A stretch of 64,000 bases of DNA from Snodgrassella alvi wkB2 (GTDB taxonomy: Bacteria > Pseudomonadota > Gammaproteobacteria > Burkholderiales > Neisseriaceae), in NCBI RefSeq assembly GCF_000600005.1, contig NZ_CP007446.1, forward strand, positions 1,390,894 to 1,454,893, given 5' to 3'. The notes beneath the pieces are model-generated. The model was not told where the DNA came from and searched no databases. It was given only the letters and a program-made list of their open reading frames with translations. Made by a program: the position numbers and the translations under genes. Positions 44,673 to 61,494 of the stretch are shown here, piece by piece. Within the stretch, counting starts at the first letter, position 1. Each line of letters starts with the position of its first letter.

Positions 44673-46400
<1,728 letters not shown>

Positions 46401-46804: not shown

Positions 46805-46889
46805 TGGTGCGGATAAAGAGACTCGAACTCTTACGCCTTTCAGCGCCAGAACCTAAATCTGGTGCGTCTACCAATTTCGCCATATCCGC
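46805..46889 (-). tRNA. tRNA-Leu (anticodon UAG)
   Basis: 85 bases including encoded CCA. Acceptor GCGGATA, D-arm with AATTGGTAGACGC, anticodon loop TTTAGGT giving UAG, a long class II variable arm, and GTTCGAGTC T-arm. Reads codon CUA and wobble partners. Confidence 0.96.
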
Positions 46890-47178
46890 AATCAATCAGT
46901 AAAAGATTGAGCGATGAATTATAGGTTAGTTTGCAAATTGTGCCAAGTGAAATATCTTAAGCATATACAGACAGATGCAAATAAGCTGTGAATGAACATA
47001 AATACCGGGAGGTTTCTTAGTGCCCAATATAAAATAATAACAGCCTGAATATTACAAACTGATTATCTGCCATGAATGCCACCAGCACAGATAGTTTGAT
47101 TGCATATAAAAAAAGCAAACAAATAGCTCACTAACAACCAAGAATTTAATTGAATCAGAAATCAGGAGAAAAAAATAT

Positions 47179-47254
47179 TGGTGGGTGATGACGGAGTCGA
47201 ACCGCCGACATTCTGCTTGTAAGGCAGACGCTCTACCAACTGAGCTAATCACCC
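47179..47254 (-). tRNA. tRNA-Val (anticodon UAC), copy near Leu
   Basis: 76 bases with encoded CCA. Acceptor GGGTGAT, D-arm TAGCTCAGTTGGTAGAGC, anticodon loop CTTACAA, T-arm GGTTCGACTCC. Identical to the copy at 47392. Confidence 0.97.
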
Positions 47255-47282
47255 CTAAGAAAGAAAACAGCAAATATGAAAT

Positions 47283-47359
47283 TGGCGCGGCGGACGGGGC
47301 TCGAACCCGCGACCCCCGGCGTGACAGGCCGGTACTCTAACCAACTGAGCTACCACCGC
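47283..47359 (-). tRNA. tRNA-Asp (anticodon GUC)
   Basis: 77 bases with encoded CCA. Acceptor GCGGTGG with a G-U pair, anticodon loop CTGTCAC, T-arm GGGTTCGAGCCC. Lies between the two tRNA-Val genes. Confidence 0.97.
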
Positions 47360-47391
47360 GCAAATTTTATGCAATGCATAAAACAGAAAAC

Positions 47392-47467
47392 TGGTGGGTG
47401 ATGACGGAGTCGAACCGCCGACATTCTGCTTGTAAGGCAGACGCTCTACCAACTGAGCTAATCACCC
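47392..47467 (-). tRNA. tRNA-Val (anticodon UAC), first gene of the cluster
   Basis: 76 bases, same sequence as the Val gene at 47179. First tRNA after the promoter at 47486-47514. The Val-Asp-Val spacing of 30 bases or so suggests one precursor transcript. Confidence 0.97.
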
Positions 47468-48348: not shown

Positions 48349-51300
48349 ATGAAAAAACAAAAAGATAAATTCCAAATTACCGGAACAAAACACATCACAT
48401 CCGGTCGAACTTTGTGCCGCACAGTCCTGGGCATTTTTAATCTTTTTGCTATTCCGTCAGCTTTGGCTGCGGCAAATATCTTTGCTGATATTCCGCTGCA
48501 TCTGCAAAGTAAATCCATTACTACTTCGTCATATAGCGTTAAACCCAATGTTACCTTTTACATCGATGATTCAGGCAGTATGTCTATGAACATCGTACCG
48601 ATTACCTATAAATGTCGAGTGAGTAAATGGATTCCCAATCCGGATGGTAAAGGGGGCAAATGGCCGCCATTTGGTAGTTATGAATACGGATTTACAAAAA
48701 AACCCAAAAATACCTCAGAAGTCAGATATAGCTGTGATACCTACCGGCGTATTGATTCCGTTAAAGAAGTACTGACAGATATCATCAAAAAATATCATGA
48801 TGATATGTACTTTGCATTTCGCCCGATGTGCGGCACCGGTGACCAGAAAAAATTCAATAAATTTTATGACACTTCTGATCCGGCCAATTATGAAAGCATG
48901 CTAAATAACATCAAAAAACTGGAAACACCATGCGACACCCCCACTACACGCCAGTTTCCTGTTATTGCGCGCAATCTGGTAATAAACAAACTGAAATATC
49001 GCTGCCAAAAATCTTATATTATTTTGCTAAGTGATGGTGAAGCTGATAATACATATTCTATTTCAGATAAAAATTTCACCAAAAATACAGATTCACGCTA
49101 CGACAGCTACTTTGATCGGGATTTTGAAACTAATAACGATCGCTTAAATTTTCTTGCCCGCAATCACAATACCAATAAACCGCTGCGTCTGAAATACTAT
49201 ACAGACAGGCTCAATAACTATAACTTTGGTGACTACATCTACACCAGTGATTACTATAGCTCAACCGGTAAATCCATTAATGCCTCACCAGTGCGAAAAA
49301 AAACTGATGATGCGGGTCAGCCATGGAATGAAGTTGATCCAAAAACAAAAAAACGTTTTCGCCAAACTGCACAAACATTCACCATCGGAGTAGGCCTCGG
49401 GCAGCGCAATACAAACGAAGCCAAAATCGCCATTCCTTATCTGGAAAATGCCGCAACGCCAAGTGGCGAATACAATGAAACAACCAATCCTAACGGACGT
49501 TTCTTTAACGCAAATTCCCGTGATGAAATTATCAGCGCTTTTGAAAAAATATTTAAAACCATCAAAGGAGAAATGACCGCATCAACCATTCAGACTACTA
49601 CAACAGCTCCGACTGTAGCCATTTCCAATACCAACCAGGGTAATCTGTCGATTACCGCCAAGGTTGAAACCGGTTCATGGAGCAGCAGGATTTGTATTTA
49701 CGATATCAATACCAAAAATGACAGCAGCTCATGCCCGATGCGGCCTACATACGGCAACCGGCAATTATTGCTTAATGATGGTAAATATACACATCTCTTT
49801 AACGAAAGCCTTAACAGCTTTAATAACAGCACATTTAAAATCAGCAACAATAATAAAAATCGTAATGAATGGCACGATGGCTTACTAGCATGGCTAAATC
49901 GTTCACTGACTGCTGATACTCAGAAAAAAAATGAATTTGTATTGGATTATCGTACCCGCCGCTCGCTGCCAGACTTCGGGAATACGCGGGATTTAGGAGA
50001 TATTATAGATAATCCGATTCTTACAGCCGGCAATATAGAAAATAACCGCCAGCGGTATCTGATTACATCAGCTAATGACGGAATGGTCTATGTTTTCCGC
50101 TCGAGTAATAATTCCAAATTTCCTTATGATTTAAAATTTAATTACATGCCAATGGGGATTGAAAGGCAGAGTAATGACGGTTCTGATCTGGTTGCTCACT
50201 ATTACAAGGATTTAACCAGCAAAAACTATGGTGCTAATGATAATTTTCCTCATCGTTTCCTGCTTAACGGAGGCATGACGGTACAACAGACAGATGGCAG
50301 CAACGGGCGACCACAGCAGATATTTATGGTTTCTACCCTCGGGCAAGCGGGACGAGGCGCATTTGCCATCAATATCGGCGGATACGATATTATTACCGGC
50401 AGGCCATTAGCCGGAGACAACATGCAATCGCCCAGCTGGTATGAAGATGTTTTCCTGTTCCAGACACCCAGCGGAAAAAACAATCAGTTTGGTTATACTG
50501 TCGGTACACCTGCCATTGCAAGAGTGCGGGTCAATTCAAATATTAATGCCTCAGATTCATCTATTACAGACCATATACGTCAGGCTGCATTTATCAGCAA
50601 TGGCTATAACTACTCCCCGTCCCTGGCTCAGGATATCACAGCCAAACCCTCACCTGAATCAGCTTTATATATTTACGACATACTGGGTATAGATGTAGGC
50701 ACTCAGGCCTATACTCATACCGGCAGCAAAAAAGGAGATTTAATTGCCAAACTGGTTGCTCCTAATGGCAGCGGCGGCCTTTCCAGCCCGACAGTTATCG
50801 ATATAAACGGAGACGGCGTAGCTGATATTGTCTATGCGGGCGATTATCAGGGTAATTTGTACCGGTTTGACTTACGTGCCCCTAATCCGTCAAACTGGAA
50901 AGTATATAAAATCTTTACTGCTGATGGCCCCATCACTTCAGCCCCCGGAGTATTTCTTCTTAAAGCAAAAGGAGCACAGCATACAAACAGCGAAATACCA
51001 ACAGCAATTGTTACTTTTGGCACAGGCAGCGATATTTATCAGTCAGACCTGACAAATAAAGCTCAGCAAAGTGTATACGGCATTTATGACGATCTGAGCC
51101 AGCAAGAAGTGCACGAAATCAGCAAAAGCAGTCTGGTAAAACAAGAATTTATCCAAGCCGGCAATTACCGTTTACTGAGTAACTATCCGCTAAACCCGGC
51201 AGTTCATCGAGGCTGGTATTTTAATCTCAAAGAAAACACCGGTGAGCGTGTTGTAACCAAACCGATAATTGTTTCTTATGCTGGCGCAGTGATATCGCGC

Positions 51301-51708
51301 ACTTATAATGTAGAAAAAGAAAATAAACTGCCTGATCCGTGCAAGATTACTTCTGTCGTCCAGCGTAATTCCGTTACCACCGGTAAAATTCAGTTTAATG
51401 TAAAAACCGGGGGCGCATTACAACGCACAGATCCGAATTTTGTATTTGATGAAGCAGCGCCAGCAGGCAGTAGCGTGAGTACGGAAGGACCTTTTGGTTT
51501 TACCGTTTCAGGCAATAATAATATCGATATCGGCGGCTCATATACCCAAAAACCATTAACTGAAAAATCTCCTCCGGTAGAAAACTGCTCGCGTGCCGCT
51601 GTGATAGCAGCGACAACAGACGGGAATAAATTAACTATTAATGTTCCGCGTTGTCCGATCATAATTCACCGGATTTCATGGCGTGAAATAAAAGAAAGTT
51701 ATCTTTAA
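48349..51708 (+). CDS. PilC/PilY1-type type IV pilus tip protein, copy 1
   Basis: 1119 residues. A long signal peptide ends near residue 38 (PSALAAA). A von Willebrand A-like region begins at about residue 66 with the MIDAS-type motif FYIDDSGSMS and continues through YIILLSDGEADN. The C-terminal half is a PilY1-type propeller; its calcium site is DINGDGVADIVYAGDYQGN near residue 818. It ends in CPIIIHRISWREIKESYL. PilC/PilY1 proteins sit at the pilus tip, promote pilus assembly, twitching and adhesion. AAGGAA precedes the ATG. A terminator follows, so copy 2 has its own promoter. Arg codons are mainly CGN. Confidence 0.95.
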   Translation: MKKQKDKFQITGTKHITSGRTLCRTVLGIFNLFAIPSALAAANIFADIPLHLQSKSITTSSYSVKPNVTFYIDDSGSMSMNIVPITYKCRVSKWIPNPDGKGGKWPPFGSYEYGFTKKPKNTSEVRYSCDTYRRIDSVKEVLTDIIKKYHDDMYFAFRPMCGTGDQKKFNKFYDTSDPANYESMLNNIKKLETPCDTPTTRQFPVIARNLVINKLKYRCQKSYIILLSDGEADNTYSISDKNFTKNTDSRYDSYFDRDFETNNDRLNFLARNHNTNKPLRLKYYTDRLNNYNFGDYIYTSDYYSSTGKSINASPVRKKTDDAGQPWNEVDPKTKKRFRQTAQTFTIGVGLGQRNTNEAKIAIPYLENAATPSGEYNETTNPNGRFFNANSRDEIISAFEKIFKTIKGEMTASTIQTTTTAPTVAISNTNQGNLSITAKVETGSWSSRICIYDINTKNDSSSCPMRPTYGNRQLLLNDGKYTHLFNESLNSFNNSTFKISNNNKNRNEWHDGLLAWLNRSLTADTQKKNEFVLDYRTRRSLPDFGNTRDLGDIIDNPILTAGNIENNRQRYLITSANDGMVYVFRSSNNSKFPYDLKFNYMPMGIERQSNDGSDLVAHYYKDLTSKNYGANDNFPHRFLLNGGMTVQQTDGSNGRPQQIFMVSTLGQAGRGAFAINIGGYDIITGRPLAGDNMQSPSWYEDVFLFQTPSGKNNQFGYTVGTPAIARVRVNSNINASDSSITDHIRQAAFISNGYNYSPSLAQDITAKPSPESALYIYDILGIDVGTQAYTHTGSKKGDLIAKLVAPNGSGGLSSPTVIDINGDGVADIVYAGDYQGNLYRFDLRAPNPSNWKVYKIFTADGPITSAPGVFLLKAKGAQHTNSEIPTAIVTFGTGSDIYQSDLTNKAQQSVYGIYDDLSQQEVHEISKSSLVKQEFIQAGNYRLLSNYPLNPAVHRGWYFNLKENTGERVVTKPIIVSYAGAVISRTYNVEKENKLPDPCKITSVVQRNSVTTGKIQFNVKTGGALQRTDPNFVFDEAAPAGSSVSTEGPFGFTVSGNNNIDIGGSYTQKPLTEKSPPVENCSRAAVIAATTDGNKLTINVPRCPIIIHRISWREIKESYL

Positions 51709-51744
51709 TCAAACTTATATTAATTACAACTTTTAATTTATTTA

Positions 51745-51778
51745 GCCGATTAAGCTATATAGTTTAATCGGCATTTTT
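51745..51778 (+). terminator. terminator after pilC copy 1
   Basis: GCCGATTAA.../...TTAATCGGC, about 12 bp with one G-T pair, then ATTTTTA. Confidence 0.8.
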
Positions 51779-52101
51779 ATAACAAATATACAAAATACCA
51801 ATAAATTCGGTTCAATCAGAAAACATTCCTTTTATGTAGCCAAATAAAATTAATATTTTTTTTAAAATTTTAATTTTTAGATACATACATAATTATATAA
51901 AGTCAATTTAAGAGAAATATTATATATATAAACCACAGATTTAATTACACAATGAAATACATTTCAATTTTATTGACTTATAGATTATTTTTACTTATAT
52001 TATCAAACAATATAACATTAAAATTCGTATGTTGATTTTAGCGAAATTTAATTTTCGCCTGAATCTATTTAACATCTATTATCAGCTTAGCAAGGTAAAG
52101 C
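51779..52101. other. AT-rich promoter region of pilC copy 2
   Basis: About 320 bases, nearly all A and T. No gene; a promoter for the downstream gene must be here, but cannot be singled out. Confidence 0.45.
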
Positions 52102-55100
52102 ATGAATACTGCGATTAAAAATAACAGGAAACCCAGATTTCCTAAAGGTAAAAAAGTTTTAGTTTCAGCTGTTACTGGAGCCTTAGGTATTCTTATGGCA
52201 CCATATACTTATGCTACAGCAAATTCTTTCGCGGATACACCTTTACGACTTCAGCAAAAATCTATTACTCAGGAAGCTTACAACGTAAAGCCTAATATTG
52301 CTTTATTTATTGATGATTCTGGTAGTATGCTGAAAGGATTAGTAAATGATCCAACTAGAAAACCAGCTAGAAAACGCTATTTTTATAAATGTATTCAAGG
52401 AAGAGCGAGTGATTTATGGGACGGCAGACCTGGCTGGAAATTGAATTTAACTTTCGATCAAAAAGAAGCACTTCTTGCTAAAAACGAAGGATGGAAGTGT
52501 AAGAGATACAAAAGAATAGATGCGGCTAAAGAAATTCTCAATACTATAGTTACCGACAATCGGGATAAAATGTATTTCGCATTACGTCCTTTATGCAGCG
52601 AAACAAACCAGTGGAATAATAGTTTTCATGATACTTCTAATCCATCTGAATTTAAAACAATGATTGAGAAAATAAATAAGTTAGATGCACCATGCGGTAC
52701 CCCAACTACTCAACAGTTCCCTGTAGTTGCAAGAAATCTGGTCATGAATCAATTGAAATACCGTTGTCAAAGATCTTATATTATCCTCTTAAGTGATGGT
52801 CTGGCTACTGCTGACTATTCAACTTCAGATAAAAACTTCACTAACAAACCAAACGAAGATTTAGATGAATTTTTTGACAAAAATTTCGCTACAAGTGCTG
52901 AGAGAGATACTTTTTTTAGAAAAAGAGATGCGCCTCAGATGATAGACAGACTGGGTTTTTATACAGATAAATTAGCAGACCCAAAAGCTCATACAGACAC
53001 TGGAAAGCCAGATGGAATTCCAGTTGGTTTTGGTCCGTATATATATAGCAAAAATTATTATTCAGGAAGTGGTGGTACTGTAACGCCGGGGATTTCAAAG
53101 TATTTGCGCACAACTGATGATGCAGGCAAACCGTGGAATTCAATAGATAATATTACAAAGAAACCCTTCTATCAAATTGCTGAAACATATACTATCGGAT
53201 TTGCACTTGCTAACATCGATCCGGATGATAAAATAAAAGATGATGATAGAGATGATCGTGCTTATTTCTATCTCGAAAATGGTGCAACACCAAAAGGACT
53301 TCATCCTAAAGGTAATTTCTTTAACGCAAATTCTAGAGATGAAATCATAGCAGCATTTAAAACTATTTTTGACAAAATTAATAAAGAAGTAAAAACTGAT
53401 GTAATTAATGTAACGACAAATGCTCCAAGTATGGGTATTTCAAGCTCATCAACAAATGATCTGGGCATTACAGCTAAAATTGAAACCGGTAACTGGAGTA
53501 GCCAGATTTGCTTACATGATTTAACTAATAAAAATTCAAAAGACAAAGGACAAACAGTCGATAAAAATGATTGTAAAGTGCAACCATCTTTTACTAATAG
53601 AAAGCTATTAATTAATAATGGCAAGACTACTTATTTATATTCAAATCTGACACCAGATCAAGGCCTGGATAATAACTCATTTGAAATTAGTACGAATGCT
53701 GATAAAAATAAAAAAGAATGGCTTGATGGTCTGCTCACTTGGTTGAGCCGTGCCAAAGATGATGACAAAATTAAGCAGGATGGCTTCGTTTTAGGTTATC
53801 GTAAGCGACCGGATAATGCCCGTAATATGGGTGATATTATTGATAATACTATTGTAACAGCAGGTGGAGTTGAGTTTAATAAACAGAAATATCTCGTCAC
53901 TTCGGCTAATGATGGAATGGTATATGTTTTCCGTGCAGCAGATAATTCGAATCATCCGTATGATCTTAAATTTAATTATATGCCAATGTCTATTGAACGG
54001 GACAGTAGTGATGGAAGTGATATAGTTGGTCACTATTATAAGGATATGCTAGATAATGATTATGGTAAAGATTCTAAACATCCTCACAGATATCTATTAA
54101 ACGGGGGGATCGTAGTAAGAGAAACCTCCGACAGAGATGACAAACCAGGCGTAAACCAAATATTTATGGTATCAACAATGGGACAGGCAGGGCGCGGAGC
54201 ATTTGCTATTAATATTGGCGGACAGGATATCGTTACTGGTAACAACATTGCTGCAGATAATATTGGCAGTGCTGGTTGGTATAACAATGTATCGCTGTTT
54301 CAGACACCAAGCGGTGCAAATAATCAGTTCGGCTATACTATTGGTAAGCCCGCAATTGCCAGAATAAGGGTAAACAGAGATACAGATGCATCAGATACAA
54401 CAATAACAGACCATCTTCGTCAAACAGCTATAATCAGTAATGGTTATAACTCTAAAGATTCTAATGATGAATCCGCATTGTATATCTATGATGCATTAGG
54501 TGTTGATGTAGGCATAGATAGTTATCAACAAACAGGTGATCAAAAAGGTACCCTAATTAAAAAAATGATTGCATCAAAAGATGGTGGCGGATTGTCCAGC
54601 CCTACAGCTGTGGATATCAATAGTGACGGGATTACCGATCTTGCATATGCTGGTGATTATAAAGGAAATCTTTATAGATTTGATTTCAGAAGCCCGGATC
54701 CAAACAAATGGACTGTAAAAAAGATTTTTTCAGCTAATGCACCTATAACGATTGCTCCGGCTGTCTATCGAGCTGCCGAAAACCTGAAAGATCCCTTAGC
54801 AAAAAACAAACTGGTCATTGTATTTGGAACAGGAAGTGATATTTATCAGTCTGATCGTGATAGTTTGCAGCAACAAACCATGTATGGAATTTACGATAAT
54901 TACAACGAACAAACAAATATGTTAATTAACAAAAGTTCGTTAGTGCAACAGGTTATGACATATAAGGATGATTATAGTTATCTGACCAACAAACCTTTTT
55001 CATCAGAAAAAGATAAGGGCTGGTATTTTAACCTGAATAAAGACGGAGAACGCGTAACAGAGTCAGTACAAAAATTAATAACAACAGGTATTGTAATGAC

Positions 55101-55530
55101 AAGATCATACTCCGTTAGCCAAAATGGTAAATTGAATGATCCTTGTGAAGATTCAACAATGGTTGAAAAAACAAATCTTGTTAGTCGTCTTACTCAGTTT
55201 AATGCACTTACAGGCGGAGCATTAACCGAAAACGACGCACACATTGTAGTAAACTCAGACTTTTCACTTGCTAACAGTTCTAAAATGGATGAAGCTACTG
55301 GAATGATGGTTTCAAATACAAATGATGGATTTGTTGATGCTTTGGATGCCGGAGGTTCGGGTAAAGAGGAAGATCCTAAAAAGCGAAGACAACCAAATAA
55401 TTGTTTTCGAAAAAAACCTATTGGGATGGATAATGAAGGTAATAAATTTGAGATTGAGGGGGTTGTTATGTGCCCTGTCAGCATCAATCGTTTATCATGG
55501 AGAGAAATTAAAACTGGTTATTTAAGCTAA
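52102..55530 (+). CDS. PilC/PilY1-type type IV pilus tip protein, copy 2
   Basis: 1142 residues, co-linear with the preceding gene. The signal peptide ends near residue 38 (YTYATA). The MIDAS-type motif LFIDDSGSMLKG lies near residue 70, YIILLSDGLATADYS follows, and the calcium site DINSDGITDLAYAGDYKGN is near residue 836. The C-terminus CPVSINRLSWREIKTGYLS matches copy 1. The segment after the MIDAS motif differs most, as expected for a surface-exposed head. The gene is visibly more AT-rich than copy 1 and uses AGA for Arg often. A ribosome site is weak (AAGGTAAAG). Different history or expression from copy 1 is likely. Confidence 0.95.
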   Translation: MNTAIKNNRKPRFPKGKKVLVSAVTGALGILMAPYTYATANSFADTPLRLQQKSITQEAYNVKPNIALFIDDSGSMLKGLVNDPTRKPARKRYFYKCIQGRASDLWDGRPGWKLNLTFDQKEALLAKNEGWKCKRYKRIDAAKEILNTIVTDNRDKMYFALRPLCSETNQWNNSFHDTSNPSEFKTMIEKINKLDAPCGTPTTQQFPVVARNLVMNQLKYRCQRSYIILLSDGLATADYSTSDKNFTNKPNEDLDEFFDKNFATSAERDTFFRKRDAPQMIDRLGFYTDKLADPKAHTDTGKPDGIPVGFGPYIYSKNYYSGSGGTVTPGISKYLRTTDDAGKPWNSIDNITKKPFYQIAETYTIGFALANIDPDDKIKDDDRDDRAYFYLENGATPKGLHPKGNFFNANSRDEIIAAFKTIFDKINKEVKTDVINVTTNAPSMGISSSSTNDLGITAKIETGNWSSQICLHDLTNKNSKDKGQTVDKNDCKVQPSFTNRKLLINNGKTTYLYSNLTPDQGLDNNSFEISTNADKNKKEWLDGLLTWLSRAKDDDKIKQDGFVLGYRKRPDNARNMGDIIDNTIVTAGGVEFNKQKYLVTSANDGMVYVFRAADNSNHPYDLKFNYMPMSIERDSSDGSDIVGHYYKDMLDNDYGKDSKHPHRYLLNGGIVVRETSDRDDKPGVNQIFMVSTMGQAGRGAFAINIGGQDIVTGNNIAADNIGSAGWYNNVSLFQTPSGANNQFGYTIGKPAIARIRVNRDTDASDTTITDHLRQTAIISNGYNSKDSNDESALYIYDALGVDVGIDSYQQTGDQKGTLIKKMIASKDGGGLSSPTAVDINSDGITDLAYAGDYKGNLYRFDFRSPDPNKWTVKKIFSANAPITIAPAVYRAAENLKDPLAKNKLVIVFGTGSDIYQSDRDSLQQQTMYGIYDNYNEQTNMLINKSSLVQQVMTYKDDYSYLTNKPFSSEKDKGWYFNLNKDGERVTESVQKLITTGIVMTRSYSVSQNGKLNDPCEDSTMVEKTNLVSRLTQFNALTGGALTENDAHIVVNSDFSLANSSKMDEATGMMVSNTNDGFVDALDAGGSGKEEDPKKRRQPNNCFRKKPIGMDNEGNKFEIEGVVMCPVSINRLSWREIKTGYLS

Positions 55531-55572
55531 GAAGATTCATAAACTTCATCTGAACATAAACATTACACTCAT

Positions 55573-55612
55573 CCCCTGAAATTTTACCTGTATAAAATTT
55601 CAGGGGATAATT
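55573..55612 (+). terminator. terminator after pilC copy 2
   Basis: A perfect 14-bp stem, CCCCTGAAATTTTA with its complement, loop CCTGTA, followed by a T-rich stretch. Confidence 0.85.
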
Positions 55613-55906: not shown

Positions 55907-56530
55907 TTAATCCGCAAAATGTCCGAGTTTTTCCATTTTGGTATGCAAATAATGCCGGTTTTCAGGATTTTGTCCGACATGTAAGGGAACACGATTAGTT
56001 ACATGAATACCGAGTGCTTTTAGTGTATCGACTTTCTGCGGATTATTGGTCATTAACTGTACAGACTGTATGCCAAGATGATCAAGAATATGTTTGGCCA
56101 AAGAAAAATCACGGGCATCGATGGGTAAATTTAAAGCAAGATTTGCTTCTACGGTATCCAGCCCTTCATCCTGAAGTTTGTAAGCCCGGATTTTATTCAG
56201 TAAGCCTATACCCCGGCCTTCCTGACGTAAATAAATAATTACACCTTTTCCTGCCTCTTGTACTGCTTTCATCGCAGCTTCAAGCTGGGGGCCGCAATCA
56301 CAGCGTTTGGAAAATAAAGCATCACCGGTAAGACATTCAGAATGAATTCGTCCGAGTATATCTTCTCCTGTAGAAATATCACCTACAGTAAGAGCAATGT
56401 GTTCCTGCCTGTTGCGTACATCTTCAAATCCGTGCATGGTAAATTCACCCCATTGCGTTGGTAAACGGCAGGAAGCAATAAAGCGTACAGGACTATTATC
56501 TTGTATTTGGTTTTGATATATTTTTGACAT
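55907..56530 (-). CDS. ribA: GTP cyclohydrolase II
   Basis: 207 residues. It converts GTP to the first riboflavin precursor. The zinc cysteines are in HSECLTGDALFSKRCDCGP, the catalytic RQEGRGIGL follows, and the GTP-binding LALNLPIDARDFSLAKHIL region is complete. It is the stand-alone RibA form without a RibB domain. It lies five bases after a GAF-like gene, with GGGATAAA as ribosome site. No FMN riboswitch is visible between the two. Confidence 0.96.
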   Translation of the reverse strand: MSKIYQNQIQDNSPVRFIASCRLPTQWGEFTMHGFEDVRNRQEHIALTVGDISTGEDILGRIHSECLTGDALFSKRCDCGPQLEAAMKAVQEAGKGVIIYLRQEGRGIGLLNKIRAYKLQDEGLDTVEANLALNLPIDARDFSLAKHILDHLGIQSVQLMTNNPQKVDTLKALGIHVTNRVPLHVGQNPENRHYLHTKMEKLGHFAD

Positions 56531-58513: not shown

Positions 58514-59842
58514 ATGACTTTTCCACAAATACTATCTTTAGTATTGCTGGTACTGATATTGGTATTATCAATCTGGCGGCATGTAAATATTGGCTTACTG
58601 GGTTTTTGTGCAGCCGCAGTAATGGTTACAGCAACACAATTCTATGCGGTAACTGGTTCAGCGACAGCACCAGACCCGGCACTCCTACTGACTTCTAAAT
58701 CAGTATTCGAGCATTTTCCGGGTTCAATTGTTACTTTACTCATTGGTGTATCGCTGCTTTTTGGGCATTTCGAACGCAGCGGAAGTCTGAGCTGGCTAAC
58801 GGATAAAGTATATAAGGCAATTGGTGAACATACTTTACTGATTCCGTGGGTTGGCTACATGATTGGTTTGTTTATTTCTACTGCCGGCGCTTTTTCTACT
58901 GCGACAATTACATTACTGGTACCGGTTATTGCGGCTTTAGGCAGACGTATGCCAAAAATATTCTTCATCAGTGAAGTCGCTGCAATTGTAGGCGCCAATA
59001 CTGGTGCTTTATCTCCGATTAATCCGGTAGGTACGGTTATTCGTGACTCTGCAAATCATGCCCAGGTCAGTTTTAACGGATGGCTGTTATGGTTACTGGG
59101 CACAATAGTTAGTGTCAGTACTGTATTGGTATTGCAAATAATTTTTAGTCCTAGTCGCATGCAGGACAGTACGAATGGAAAAAAACCGGCTCGTGGTCTG
59201 GCTTTACTGAAACCAGTTGCTATTGATAATAATGATAAAGGACAACTAAATCCTGCCTATGCAATCTGCTCAACATTATCTGTATTGCTCTTTATCACTC
59301 TGGTGGTATTTGCAGGTACTGACGTGGGATTAACAGCAATTTCTCTGGCTGTATTATTGCTGTTACTGTTTCCGGAATATAGTAAAAATTTAGCCAGAAA
59401 TATCCCCTGGAATGCTGTGGTAGTAATCAGTGGTTTACTGGTGTTTATTGGTACGATGATGTTGGTACATACCATGGATGCATTAGAAAACCGTTTACTC
59501 GGTATGACTACCAATCAGATAATTTTATTATTCATTATTACGTATTTAACTACCAGTCTGAGTAATGTTGAATCTTCTACTATTGGTGTGATCAGTCTGA
59601 TGACACCTATGATTTTTACGATATTCGGCGGTTCAGCGCATATGTCGCTGATTCTGGCTGCCTGCGTAGCACCGGCTTTACTCAGTGTGATTAATCCGAT
59701 TCATATAGCCGGTACGCTGGTGGTAAGTTATACCGATGAAAAGCAGCAGGATGCAATGTTCAGGCGTCTGCTAACCATTGCTTTTTTCATTGTTCCGATT
59801 ATTCCGGGATTAACAATGATTTTGCCGGCAGTGATGCTTTAG
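58514..59842 (+). CDS. MatC-like/IT-superfamily organic-acid permease, copy 1
   Basis: 442 residues with about ten to twelve membrane helices. The start LVLILVLSIWRHVNIGLLGF resembles the MatC N-terminal domain of malonate/dicarboxylate carriers. GLFISTAGAFSTATITLLVP and GANTGALSPINPVG form the first hairpin-type motif, and SNVESSTIGVISLM with SVINPIHIAGTLVVS the second, the two-fold repeat of the ion-transporter superfamily. Substrate is inferred to be a di- or tricarboxylate. A homologue follows at 60181. No strong ribosome site is visible. Confidence 0.85.
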   Translation: MTFPQILSLVLLVLILVLSIWRHVNIGLLGFCAAAVMVTATQFYAVTGSATAPDPALLLTSKSVFEHFPGSIVTLLIGVSLLFGHFERSGSLSWLTDKVYKAIGEHTLLIPWVGYMIGLFISTAGAFSTATITLLVPVIAALGRRMPKIFFISEVAAIVGANTGALSPINPVGTVIRDSANHAQVSFNGWLLWLLGTIVSVSTVLVLQIIFSPSRMQDSTNGKKPARGLALLKPVAIDNNDKGQLNPAYAICSTLSVLLFITLVVFAGTDVGLTAISLAVLLLLLFPEYSKNLARNIPWNAVVVISGLLVFIGTMMLVHTMDALENRLLGMTTNQIILLFIITYLTTSLSNVESSTIGVISLMTPMIFTIFGGSAHMSLILAACVAPALLSVINPIHIAGTLVVSYTDEKQQDAMFRRLLTIAFFIVPIIPGLTMILPAVML

Positions 59843-60180: not shown

Positions 60181-61494
60181 ATGAACTTACCACAAATTTT
60201 ATCGCTTATATTATTGGTTGTGATTTTGGTTCTGGCAGTATGGCGACACGTCAATATTGGTCTTTTAGGATTTAGTGCTGCGGCGATAATGGTTATGGCG
60301 ACAACTGCAATTGCTGATGGTTCTGATACAAATACAGTCTTGAGCAGCAAGGATGTACTCAGCCATTTTCCCGGAGCCATTGTAACGCTGTTAATCGGTG
60401 TGTCCTTACTTTTTGCTCATCTGGAAAAAAGCGGTGGCTTAAGCTGGTTTACAGATCAGATTTACGCAAAAATGGGGCATCGCACTAATATTGTTCCTTG
60501 GATTGGCTATTTTATCGGATTTGCGATTTCGACAGCCGGTGCCTTTTCTACGGCATCGATAACGTTGCTGGTTCCGGTTATTGCTGCTTTAGGCAGAAAA
60601 CATCCCAGATTATTTTTCATCTGTGAAATGGCAGCAATTATTGGTGCCAATACCGGTGCACTTTCACCTATTAATCCTACTGGTCAGGTTATTCTGGATG
60701 CAGCAAAAAAAGCACATGTTGAGTATAGTCCGTGGCTGGTCTGGTTTCTGGGAATGTTAATCAGTTTTGTGCTGGTTATTGCCCTGCAAATTGTATTTCA
60801 GGATAAAAGAGTAGTCGAAACAAGTGATTCTAAAGCGCCTGAAAAAGGCTTTGTACTGCTAAAACCAATTAAACAGGAAAATGGTGATAACCATCAGTTA
60901 CAGCCATTTTATGCAATCTGTTCTACTATTGCTGTATTGATTTTTCTGATATTAGTGATATTTGCTAAAGCCAATGTCGGTCTGACTGCTCTGACGCTGG
61001 CAGTAATTATGATGCTGTTTTTTACGCAGCAAAGTAAAGATTTTGTGAAAAAAATCCCATGGAATGCTGTAGTGGTTATTAGTGGTCTGCTGATTTTCAT
61101 CGGTACCATGATGCAGGTAAATACAATGAAAGCGGTAGAACAAGGTCTGCTCAGTATGACCAGCAGTAAAATTGCTTTATTGTTTATGCTCGCTTACCTG
61201 ACTACGTTCCTGAGTAATGTGGAGTCCTCTACTTTAGGTGTTATCAGCTTGATGATTCCGATGGTATTTACGATTTTTGGCGATTCTCCGCAAATCTCTT
61301 TGATTCTGACTGCCTGTGCGGCACCAGCTATGCTCAGTGTCGTTAATCCGATTCATATTGCCGGTACTCTGGTGGTAAGTGTGACCGAAGAAAAACAGCA
61401 GGAAATGATGTTCAAACGTTTATTGATTATTGCCTTTGCTACAGTACCGTTTTTTCCCGGACTAGCTATGATTGTTCCGGCTCTGATGATGTAA
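60181..61494 (+). CDS. MatC-like/IT-superfamily organic-acid permease, copy 2
   Basis: 437 residues, co-linear with the preceding permease and sharing most motif residues: WRHVNIGLLGF, STAGAFSTASITLLVPVIAA, GANTGALSPINPTGQ, IPWNAVVVISGLL, SNVESSTLGVISLM and NPIHIAGTLVVS. Differences cluster in loops and in the residue after NPxG (TV in copy 1, QV here), a position near the substrate in this superfamily. A tandem duplication with possible change in specificity is inferred. A terminator follows. Confidence 0.85.
   Translation: MNLPQILSLILLVVILVLAVWRHVNIGLLGFSAAAIMVMATTAIADGSDTNTVLSSKDVLSHFPGAIVTLLIGVSLLFAHLEKSGGLSWFTDQIYAKMGHRTNIVPWIGYFIGFAISTAGAFSTASITLLVPVIAALGRKHPRLFFICEMAAIIGANTGALSPINPTGQVILDAAKKAHVEYSPWLVWFLGMLISFVLVIALQIVFQDKRVVETSDSKAPEKGFVLLKPIKQENGDNHQLQPFYAICSTIAVLIFLILVIFAKANVGLTALTLAVIMMLFFTQQSKDFVKKIPWNAVVVISGLLIFIGTMMQVNTMKAVEQGLLSMTSSKIALLFMLAYLTTFLSNVESSTLGVISLMIPMVFTIFGDSPQISLILTACAAPAMLSVVNPIHIAGTLVVSVTEEKQQEMMFKRLLIIAFATVPFFPGLAMIVPALMM

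Follow-up and report, generated by a model that had tools for sequence, protein, structure and literature searches.

A tandem pair of PilY1-family genes in Snodgrassella alvi wkB2: old paralogues with a possible head exchange in the second copy

The genome of Snodgrassella alvi wkB2 carries two genes of the pilC/pilY1 type side by side, and the locus raises the question of where the second copy came from and whether the pair could provide the type IV pilus with different tips. The DNA analysed here, called the window, is a stretch of 64,000 nucleotides (positions 1390894-1454893 of a single contig of 2,527,978 bases). An earlier reading made from the letters alone (the sequence-only reading) had recognized tandem paralogues, and this held: both open reading frames are intact, full-length and on the forward strand, and they match the Pfam PilY1 family PF05567 with 135.3 bits for copy 1 and 144.7 bits for copy 2, against a cut-off of 28.1. 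These are the only PF05567 matches in the 2.53 Mb genome. Scores with NCBIfam NF040838, the Neisseria equivalog for the PilC family type IV pilus tip adhesin, were 257.3 and 269.9 bits and lie below the cut-off of 350, so the copies are classed here as PilY1-family relatives only and not as equivalogs of Neisseria PilC. Globally the two proteins are 50% identical over 1082 aligned residues, with identity highest in the propeller and lowest in the head and far tail. Among the papers searched, none treated pilY1 in Snodgrassella and none gave an experiment on either gene. Features of the locus are collected in Table 1.

Table 1. Features of the tandem pilC/pilY1 locus and its flanks, in window coordinates.
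Feature	Coordinates	Strand	Basis
argS, left flank	44679..46400	+	NCBIfam TIGR00456; synteny
tRNA-Leu, tRNA-Val, tRNA-Asp, tRNA-Val, left flank	46805..47467	-	ARAGORN; found there in related genomes too
Copy 1, pilC/pilY1-type predicted pilus-tip adhesin gene	48349..51708	+	ORF of 1119 aa; PF05567; tree (copy-1 clade A6)
Copy 1 MIDAS DxSxS (DDSGS, residues 73-77)	48565..48579	+	Motif comparison
Copy 1 PilY1 beta-propeller	50035..51114	+	PF05567 at residues 563-922; Foldseek to 3hx6, E 2.5e-17
Copy 1 calcium loop DINGDGVAD (residues 818-826)	50800..50826	+	Aligned to P. aeruginosa PilY1 3hx6
Intrinsic terminator-like hairpin between the copies	51745..51772	+	12-pair stem followed by ATTTTTAT (T tract); folding z-score -5.6
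Copy 2, pilC/pilY1-type predicted pilus-tip adhesin gene	52102..55530	+	ORF of 1142 aa; PF05567; trees; AT-rich; private lineage
Copy 2 head, vWA domain (residues 60-435)	52279..53406	+	Structural match to pilus-tip adhesins; phylogenetically not B type
Copy 2 MIDAS DxSxS (DDSGS, residues 71-75)	52312..52326	+	Motif comparison
Copy 2 body, propeller and tail (residues 436-1142)	53407..55527	+	Z 26.7 to 3hx6; not A6 type
Copy 2 calcium loop DINSDGITD (residues 838-846)	54613..54639	+	Aligned to 3hx6
Intrinsic terminator-like hairpin after copy 2	55571..55608	+	Hairpin search
ribA-like gene, right flank	55907..56530	-	Synteny; adjoins copy 2 in most related tandem loci

Both proteins have the same layout: a start resembling a signal peptide, then a vWA head whose MIDAS is intact, and toward the C-terminus a beta-propeller, with its calcium loop, and the ending conserved in the family. 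The claim that both copies keep the MIDAS-type and calcium-site motifs was confirmed, and it extends to two further MIDAS residues, a Thr in the loop (PTT) and an Asp farther on (LSDG), which are also present in both. Such retention is not automatic, because the MIDAS or the calcium loop has been lost in several relatives. The AlphaFold model of copy 1 (pLDDT 64) matches the Pseudomonas aeruginosa PilY1 structure 3hx6, and its head matches the vWA domain of 7n1o weakly (E 1.7e-3). The model of copy 2 has a mean pLDDT of 57, with the head and parts of the body locally better; in this model the head aligns with the vWA domains of the solved pilus-tip adhesins Mfa5, SpaC, PilB, and RrgA at Z 15-17 (VIA-align Z 17.4 for Mfa5 and about 17 for SpaC/PilB), and the body has about 24% sequence identity to 3hx6 in the structural alignment. 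A shared C-terminal ending had also been remarked on. The SWREI-like ending is indeed present in both copies, but 62 of 63 long Neisseriaceae homologues fit the loose pattern and the sole exception ends in AWREV, so the ending says nothing special about this pair and was rejected as a signature of it.

Metal-site changes elsewhere in the genus take several forms. In several pilC copies of related species, with L031, L032, and L040 (genomes G001, G002, and G008) as the examples, either the calcium loop is altered (DGDDIAD or AAD, as against DGDGxAD/AGD) or the MIDAS is (DSSAS, DASAS, or DDSVS), and the pilC copies at L043 and L037 are without a MIDAS. Judged by these motifs, some Snodgrassella pilC paralogues appear to have changed or relaxed their metal use.

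The genomic setting places the pair in an old locus. In related genomes, one or two pilC genes occupy the same site between the tRNA genes and argS on one side and, on the other, a gene that from its sequence we take to be ribA. Tandem pairs are also found in G001, G002, G003, G004 (wkB298), G005, G008, and G012; in G012 the tRNA side matches, and ribA was not found adjoining. The window copies are old, long-separated paralogues, and the site they occupy is conserved in the order argS, tRNAs, pilC-pilC, ribA. The terminator-like hairpin between the genes suggests that copies 1 and 2 have separate transcripts. The tRNA block flanking pilC in G003 (L033 11-828) holds four tRNA-Val/tRNA-Asp pairs, compared with Val-Asp-Val in the window, and pilC is broken by an in-frame stop in G009 (L041 7685-10987) and split or truncated in G012 (L047 5922-8413), so copy loss also occurs in the genus.

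In trees of the family, all Snodgrassella copies form one clade (SH-aLRT 100). Copy 1 falls in a clade, A6, supported at 100*, together with copies from G004, G005, G010, G012, and G013, and is 81% identical to the copy of wkB298. The pairs of G001, G002, G003, and G008 make up A8, the sister clade of A6, and are the only ones that resemble a lineage-specific duplication, while most second copies belong to clade B. Copy 2 of the window has no clear membership in A6, A8, or B: it sits in an open fork of the full-length tree, on a long branch, and its full-length identity to any other sampled Snodgrassella copy, in 13 further species with one genome each, reaches about 51% at most. When tested with the core genes argS, sucA, and sdhA, the grouping that copy 1 shows is rejected (p 0.0007), which implies that sorting of paralogues or exchange within the genus has happened.

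A recent tandem duplication whose products are still undergoing gene conversion would agree with two copies lying next to each other on the same strand, but the trees and the DNA both speak against it. For the body region, the AU test rejects copies 1 and 2 as a sole sister pair (p = 6e-5), and in 50-codon blocks no tract between them exceeds about 71% DNA identity; we give this explanation next to no credence. Recent gene conversion between the two copies is ruled out on its own account, as a high-identity tract is absent. The sequence-only reading had named, as the outcome that would count against it, a recent duplication with equal composition; the copies do not group in that way, and they differ in third-position GC content (GC3).

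A difference in composition had been remarked on, along with the suggestion that copy 2 may have come from another lineage. Codon-usage statistics uphold the description itself, according to which copy 2 is more AT-rich and uses far more AGA for arginine. GC is 0.418 in copy 1 and 0.359 in copy 2, GC3 is 0.385 and 0.247, and AGA accounts for 2 of 54 arginine codons in copy 1 as against 26 of 50 in copy 2 (Fisher p = 1.6e-8). In a sample of about 864 kb of the genome, mean GC3 was 0.381 (sd 0.067) and AGA made up 10.6% of arginine codons. The GC3 of copy 2 lies within the lowest 4.4% of sampled genes, which is unusual, not unique. Genes of this genome with GC3 of 0.22-0.25 have a pooled AGA fraction of 0.45 (sd 0.13); AGA use tracks GC3, and the 26 AGA codons add nothing beyond AT-richness. 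The AGA excess was therefore rejected as independent evidence of foreign origin, and a false lead is removed, since AGA-rich codon use here marks AT-rich genes generally and not foreign ones. Third-position GC skew does not single out copy 2 as foreign either, because the outlier is copy 1 (-0.30), with copy 2 (-0.04) nearer the genome mean of 0.09. Across the eight tandem pairs compared, the downstream gene is in every case the more AT-rich, by a very small margin in G003, although these pairs are related and do not count as eight independent events. Elsewhere in the genome, large AT-rich genes with RTX repeats (L104 6794-19775 and L093 12095-17269, with more AT-rich ORFs between those in L104) belong to a low-GC3, AGA-rich class, like copy 2.

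Import of copy 2 from another genus, with its AT- and AGA-rich codon use being that of the donor, would account for its low GC3 rank and its AGA use relative to the genome. This explanation is nevertheless very improbable given the membership of every genus copy in one clade, the normality of such AGA use among AT-rich genes here, and the greater AT-richness of second copies in the other tandem pairs. The best match outside the genus, among 399 genomes of the order, is 40% identical, with none above 41%. A search of those 399 genomes, of GTDB contigs, and of viral contigs yielded no close donor outside Snodgrassella, and the matching loci in the GTDB contig scan came only from Snodgrassella and Neisseriaceae. 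Of the suggestion that copy 2 came from another lineage, what stands is that copy 2 forms a separate lineage; it probably arose within the genus clade and not from a foreign donor. Exchange by way of a DNA uptake sequence of the Neisseria type was considered too and rejected, as no 10- or 12-mer of that type is enriched in the 864 kb made up of L091-L130 and the window. The commonest 12-mers there occur just 14 times, as overlapping forms of the ATATTCTGAATG family, which is possibly a dispersed repeat.

If copy 2 arose inside the genus, its two halves may have done so by different routes. The proteins were divided into segments at copy-1 residues 430, 563, and 925, positions chosen ahead of the placement tests. 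Under LG+G4, the head of copy 2 fits best in A6, ahead of the A8 stem by 3.2 units and of B by 24.6; for the propeller B or the base fits best, with A6 behind by 29.6; and for the tail B does, with A6 behind by 50.2. Under the mixture model, the head is rejected from clade B (AU p = 0.008) and the body is rejected from A6 (AU p 5e-52). These placements qualify the earlier remark that the head regions diverge: the remark holds for raw identity, but in the trees it is the head of copy 2 that fits the usual copy-2 lineage worst, while the body is firmly excluded from that of copy 1. Twenty control copies each kept one placement throughout with no switch by segment, L050 coming to a near-tie in the head. 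A site-likelihood scan, whose result came after the boundaries had been set, has its cumulative peak at residue 435, where the vWA match ends; its shuffle p-values are not diagnostic, being low in several control copies also, and the change of placement alone is specific to copy 2.

The main competitor to a head exchange is a single undivided history, in which copy 2 is a deep branch, sister to all of clade A or to all genus copies, and its head has simply evolved faster. To this we give somewhat less than an even chance. It agrees with the position of copy 2 in the open fork and with the best full-length tree, which joins copy 2 to clade A with support of 13.9, and the mixture model does not reject a placement as sister of the whole of clade A, either in the head (A alone as a clade, p 0.145) or in the body and the tail (copy 2 + A, p 0.12 and p 0.21). 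Several observations pull the other way. With LG+G4 the head favors a place inside clade A over the A stem by 17 log units, and the body favors the B stem or the base. Diagnostic sites divide 7:2 toward A in the head and 0:5 toward B in the tail. In most stretches of 60 residues, the identity of the outgroups to A is close to their identity to B (at head residues 121-180 the values are 0.16-0.21 for A and 0.23 for B), which speaks against a mere artefact of rate for copy 2 and makes unequal rates a poor explanation for a head that leans to A and a tail that leans to B. On balance, the favored reading of the pattern is that the vWA head of copy 2 was exchanged at the point where head and propeller meet; because the mixture model does not reject copy 2 as sister to A in either head or body, the swap is suggested and not demonstrated. 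A more specific version, in which the second slot is an exchange site where a vWA head of the copy-1 clade was fused at the domain boundary to a propeller body of the copy-2 type, so that S. alvi gained a tip specificity of its own linked to its honey-bee host, is tentative and in our view rather doubtful.

Other bacteria offer several precedents for more than one such protein in a genome. Neisseria meningitidis and N. gonorrhoeae, also Neisseriaceae, have two paralogous PilC proteins, PilC1 and PilC2, that combine a propeller bearing a calcium loop with an adhesive N-terminal region, but these are described as highly homologous (PMC9000118), whereas the window copies are in tandem and 50% identical. 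Kingella kingae likewise has a divergent PilC1/PilC2 pair in one genome; there the binding specificities have been shown by experiment to be distinct (PMC9000118), and the overall identity of 7% is far below that of the tandem copies here. Myxococcus xanthus possesses PilY1.1, PilY1.2, and PilY1.3, which have a conserved C-terminus and a variable N-terminus and have been proposed to tailor the pilus tip (PMC13190605); those genes lie in separate minor-pilin clusters, unlike the window genes, which lie by housekeeping genes and tRNAs. Pseudomonas aeruginosa PilY1 (3hx6) shares the propeller fold and calcium loop, but is single-copy, belongs to a minor pilin cluster, and has low sequence identity to the window copies. 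Phase variation of Neisseria pilC by frameshift is the subject of a title cited in PMC2729722. A phase-variable homopolymer as in the pathogenic Neisseria was rejected for the window copies, in which no run of G or C exceeds 6 bases and the longest runs are of 7-8 A or T.

Work on PilC/PilY1 has the propeller half docking with minor pilins and the vWA head forming the tip (PMC13190605), and biofilm formation by S. alvi wkB2 itself suffers in the type IV pilus mutants pilF and pilG (PMC11389375). By analogy, the propeller half of each copy would dock on minor pilins and prime or stabilize the pilus, with the vWA head as the outermost, ligand-binding tip. We consider it likely that the two are paralogous type IV pilus tip proteins and that copy 2 arose inside Snodgrassella, with a head exchange as the favored but unproven route. 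If expressed separately, the two could let the cell make pili with either tip, which might bind different surfaces in the bee ileum. Copy 1 belongs to the well-supported copy-1 clade of an old tandem locus, and copy 2 appears to fill the usual second slot with a private, deeply divergent sequence originating within the genus; most likely that slot turns over by recombination among the genus paralogues, the putative exchange in copy 2 being an old one.

Different adhesion specificities for copies 1 and 2, as first proposed, are plausible by comparison with the Neisseria and Kingella pairs. Alternatively, the two tips could be redundant, the composition of copy 2 reflecting weaker selection on codons in a spare gene that is seldom expressed. 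Gonococcal PilC1 and PilC2 have been called functionally identical (PMC2729722), and the tendency of downstream copies in tandem pairs toward lower GC3 would fit; we nonetheless think redundancy unlikely, given that the MIDAS and calcium residues are kept in both copies at 50% identity and that the Kingella and meningococcal pairs differ in binding (PMC9000118). Two intact, long-diverged predicted tip proteins in one host-restricted symbiont, with a second slot that varies by species, make a small candidate set for host or niche recognition.

The window holds a second tandem paralogue pair a little way downstream, at 58514-59842 and 60181-61494. The two products, of 442 and 437 aa, are visibly similar and are, as we take it from their sequences, membrane-transporter-like.
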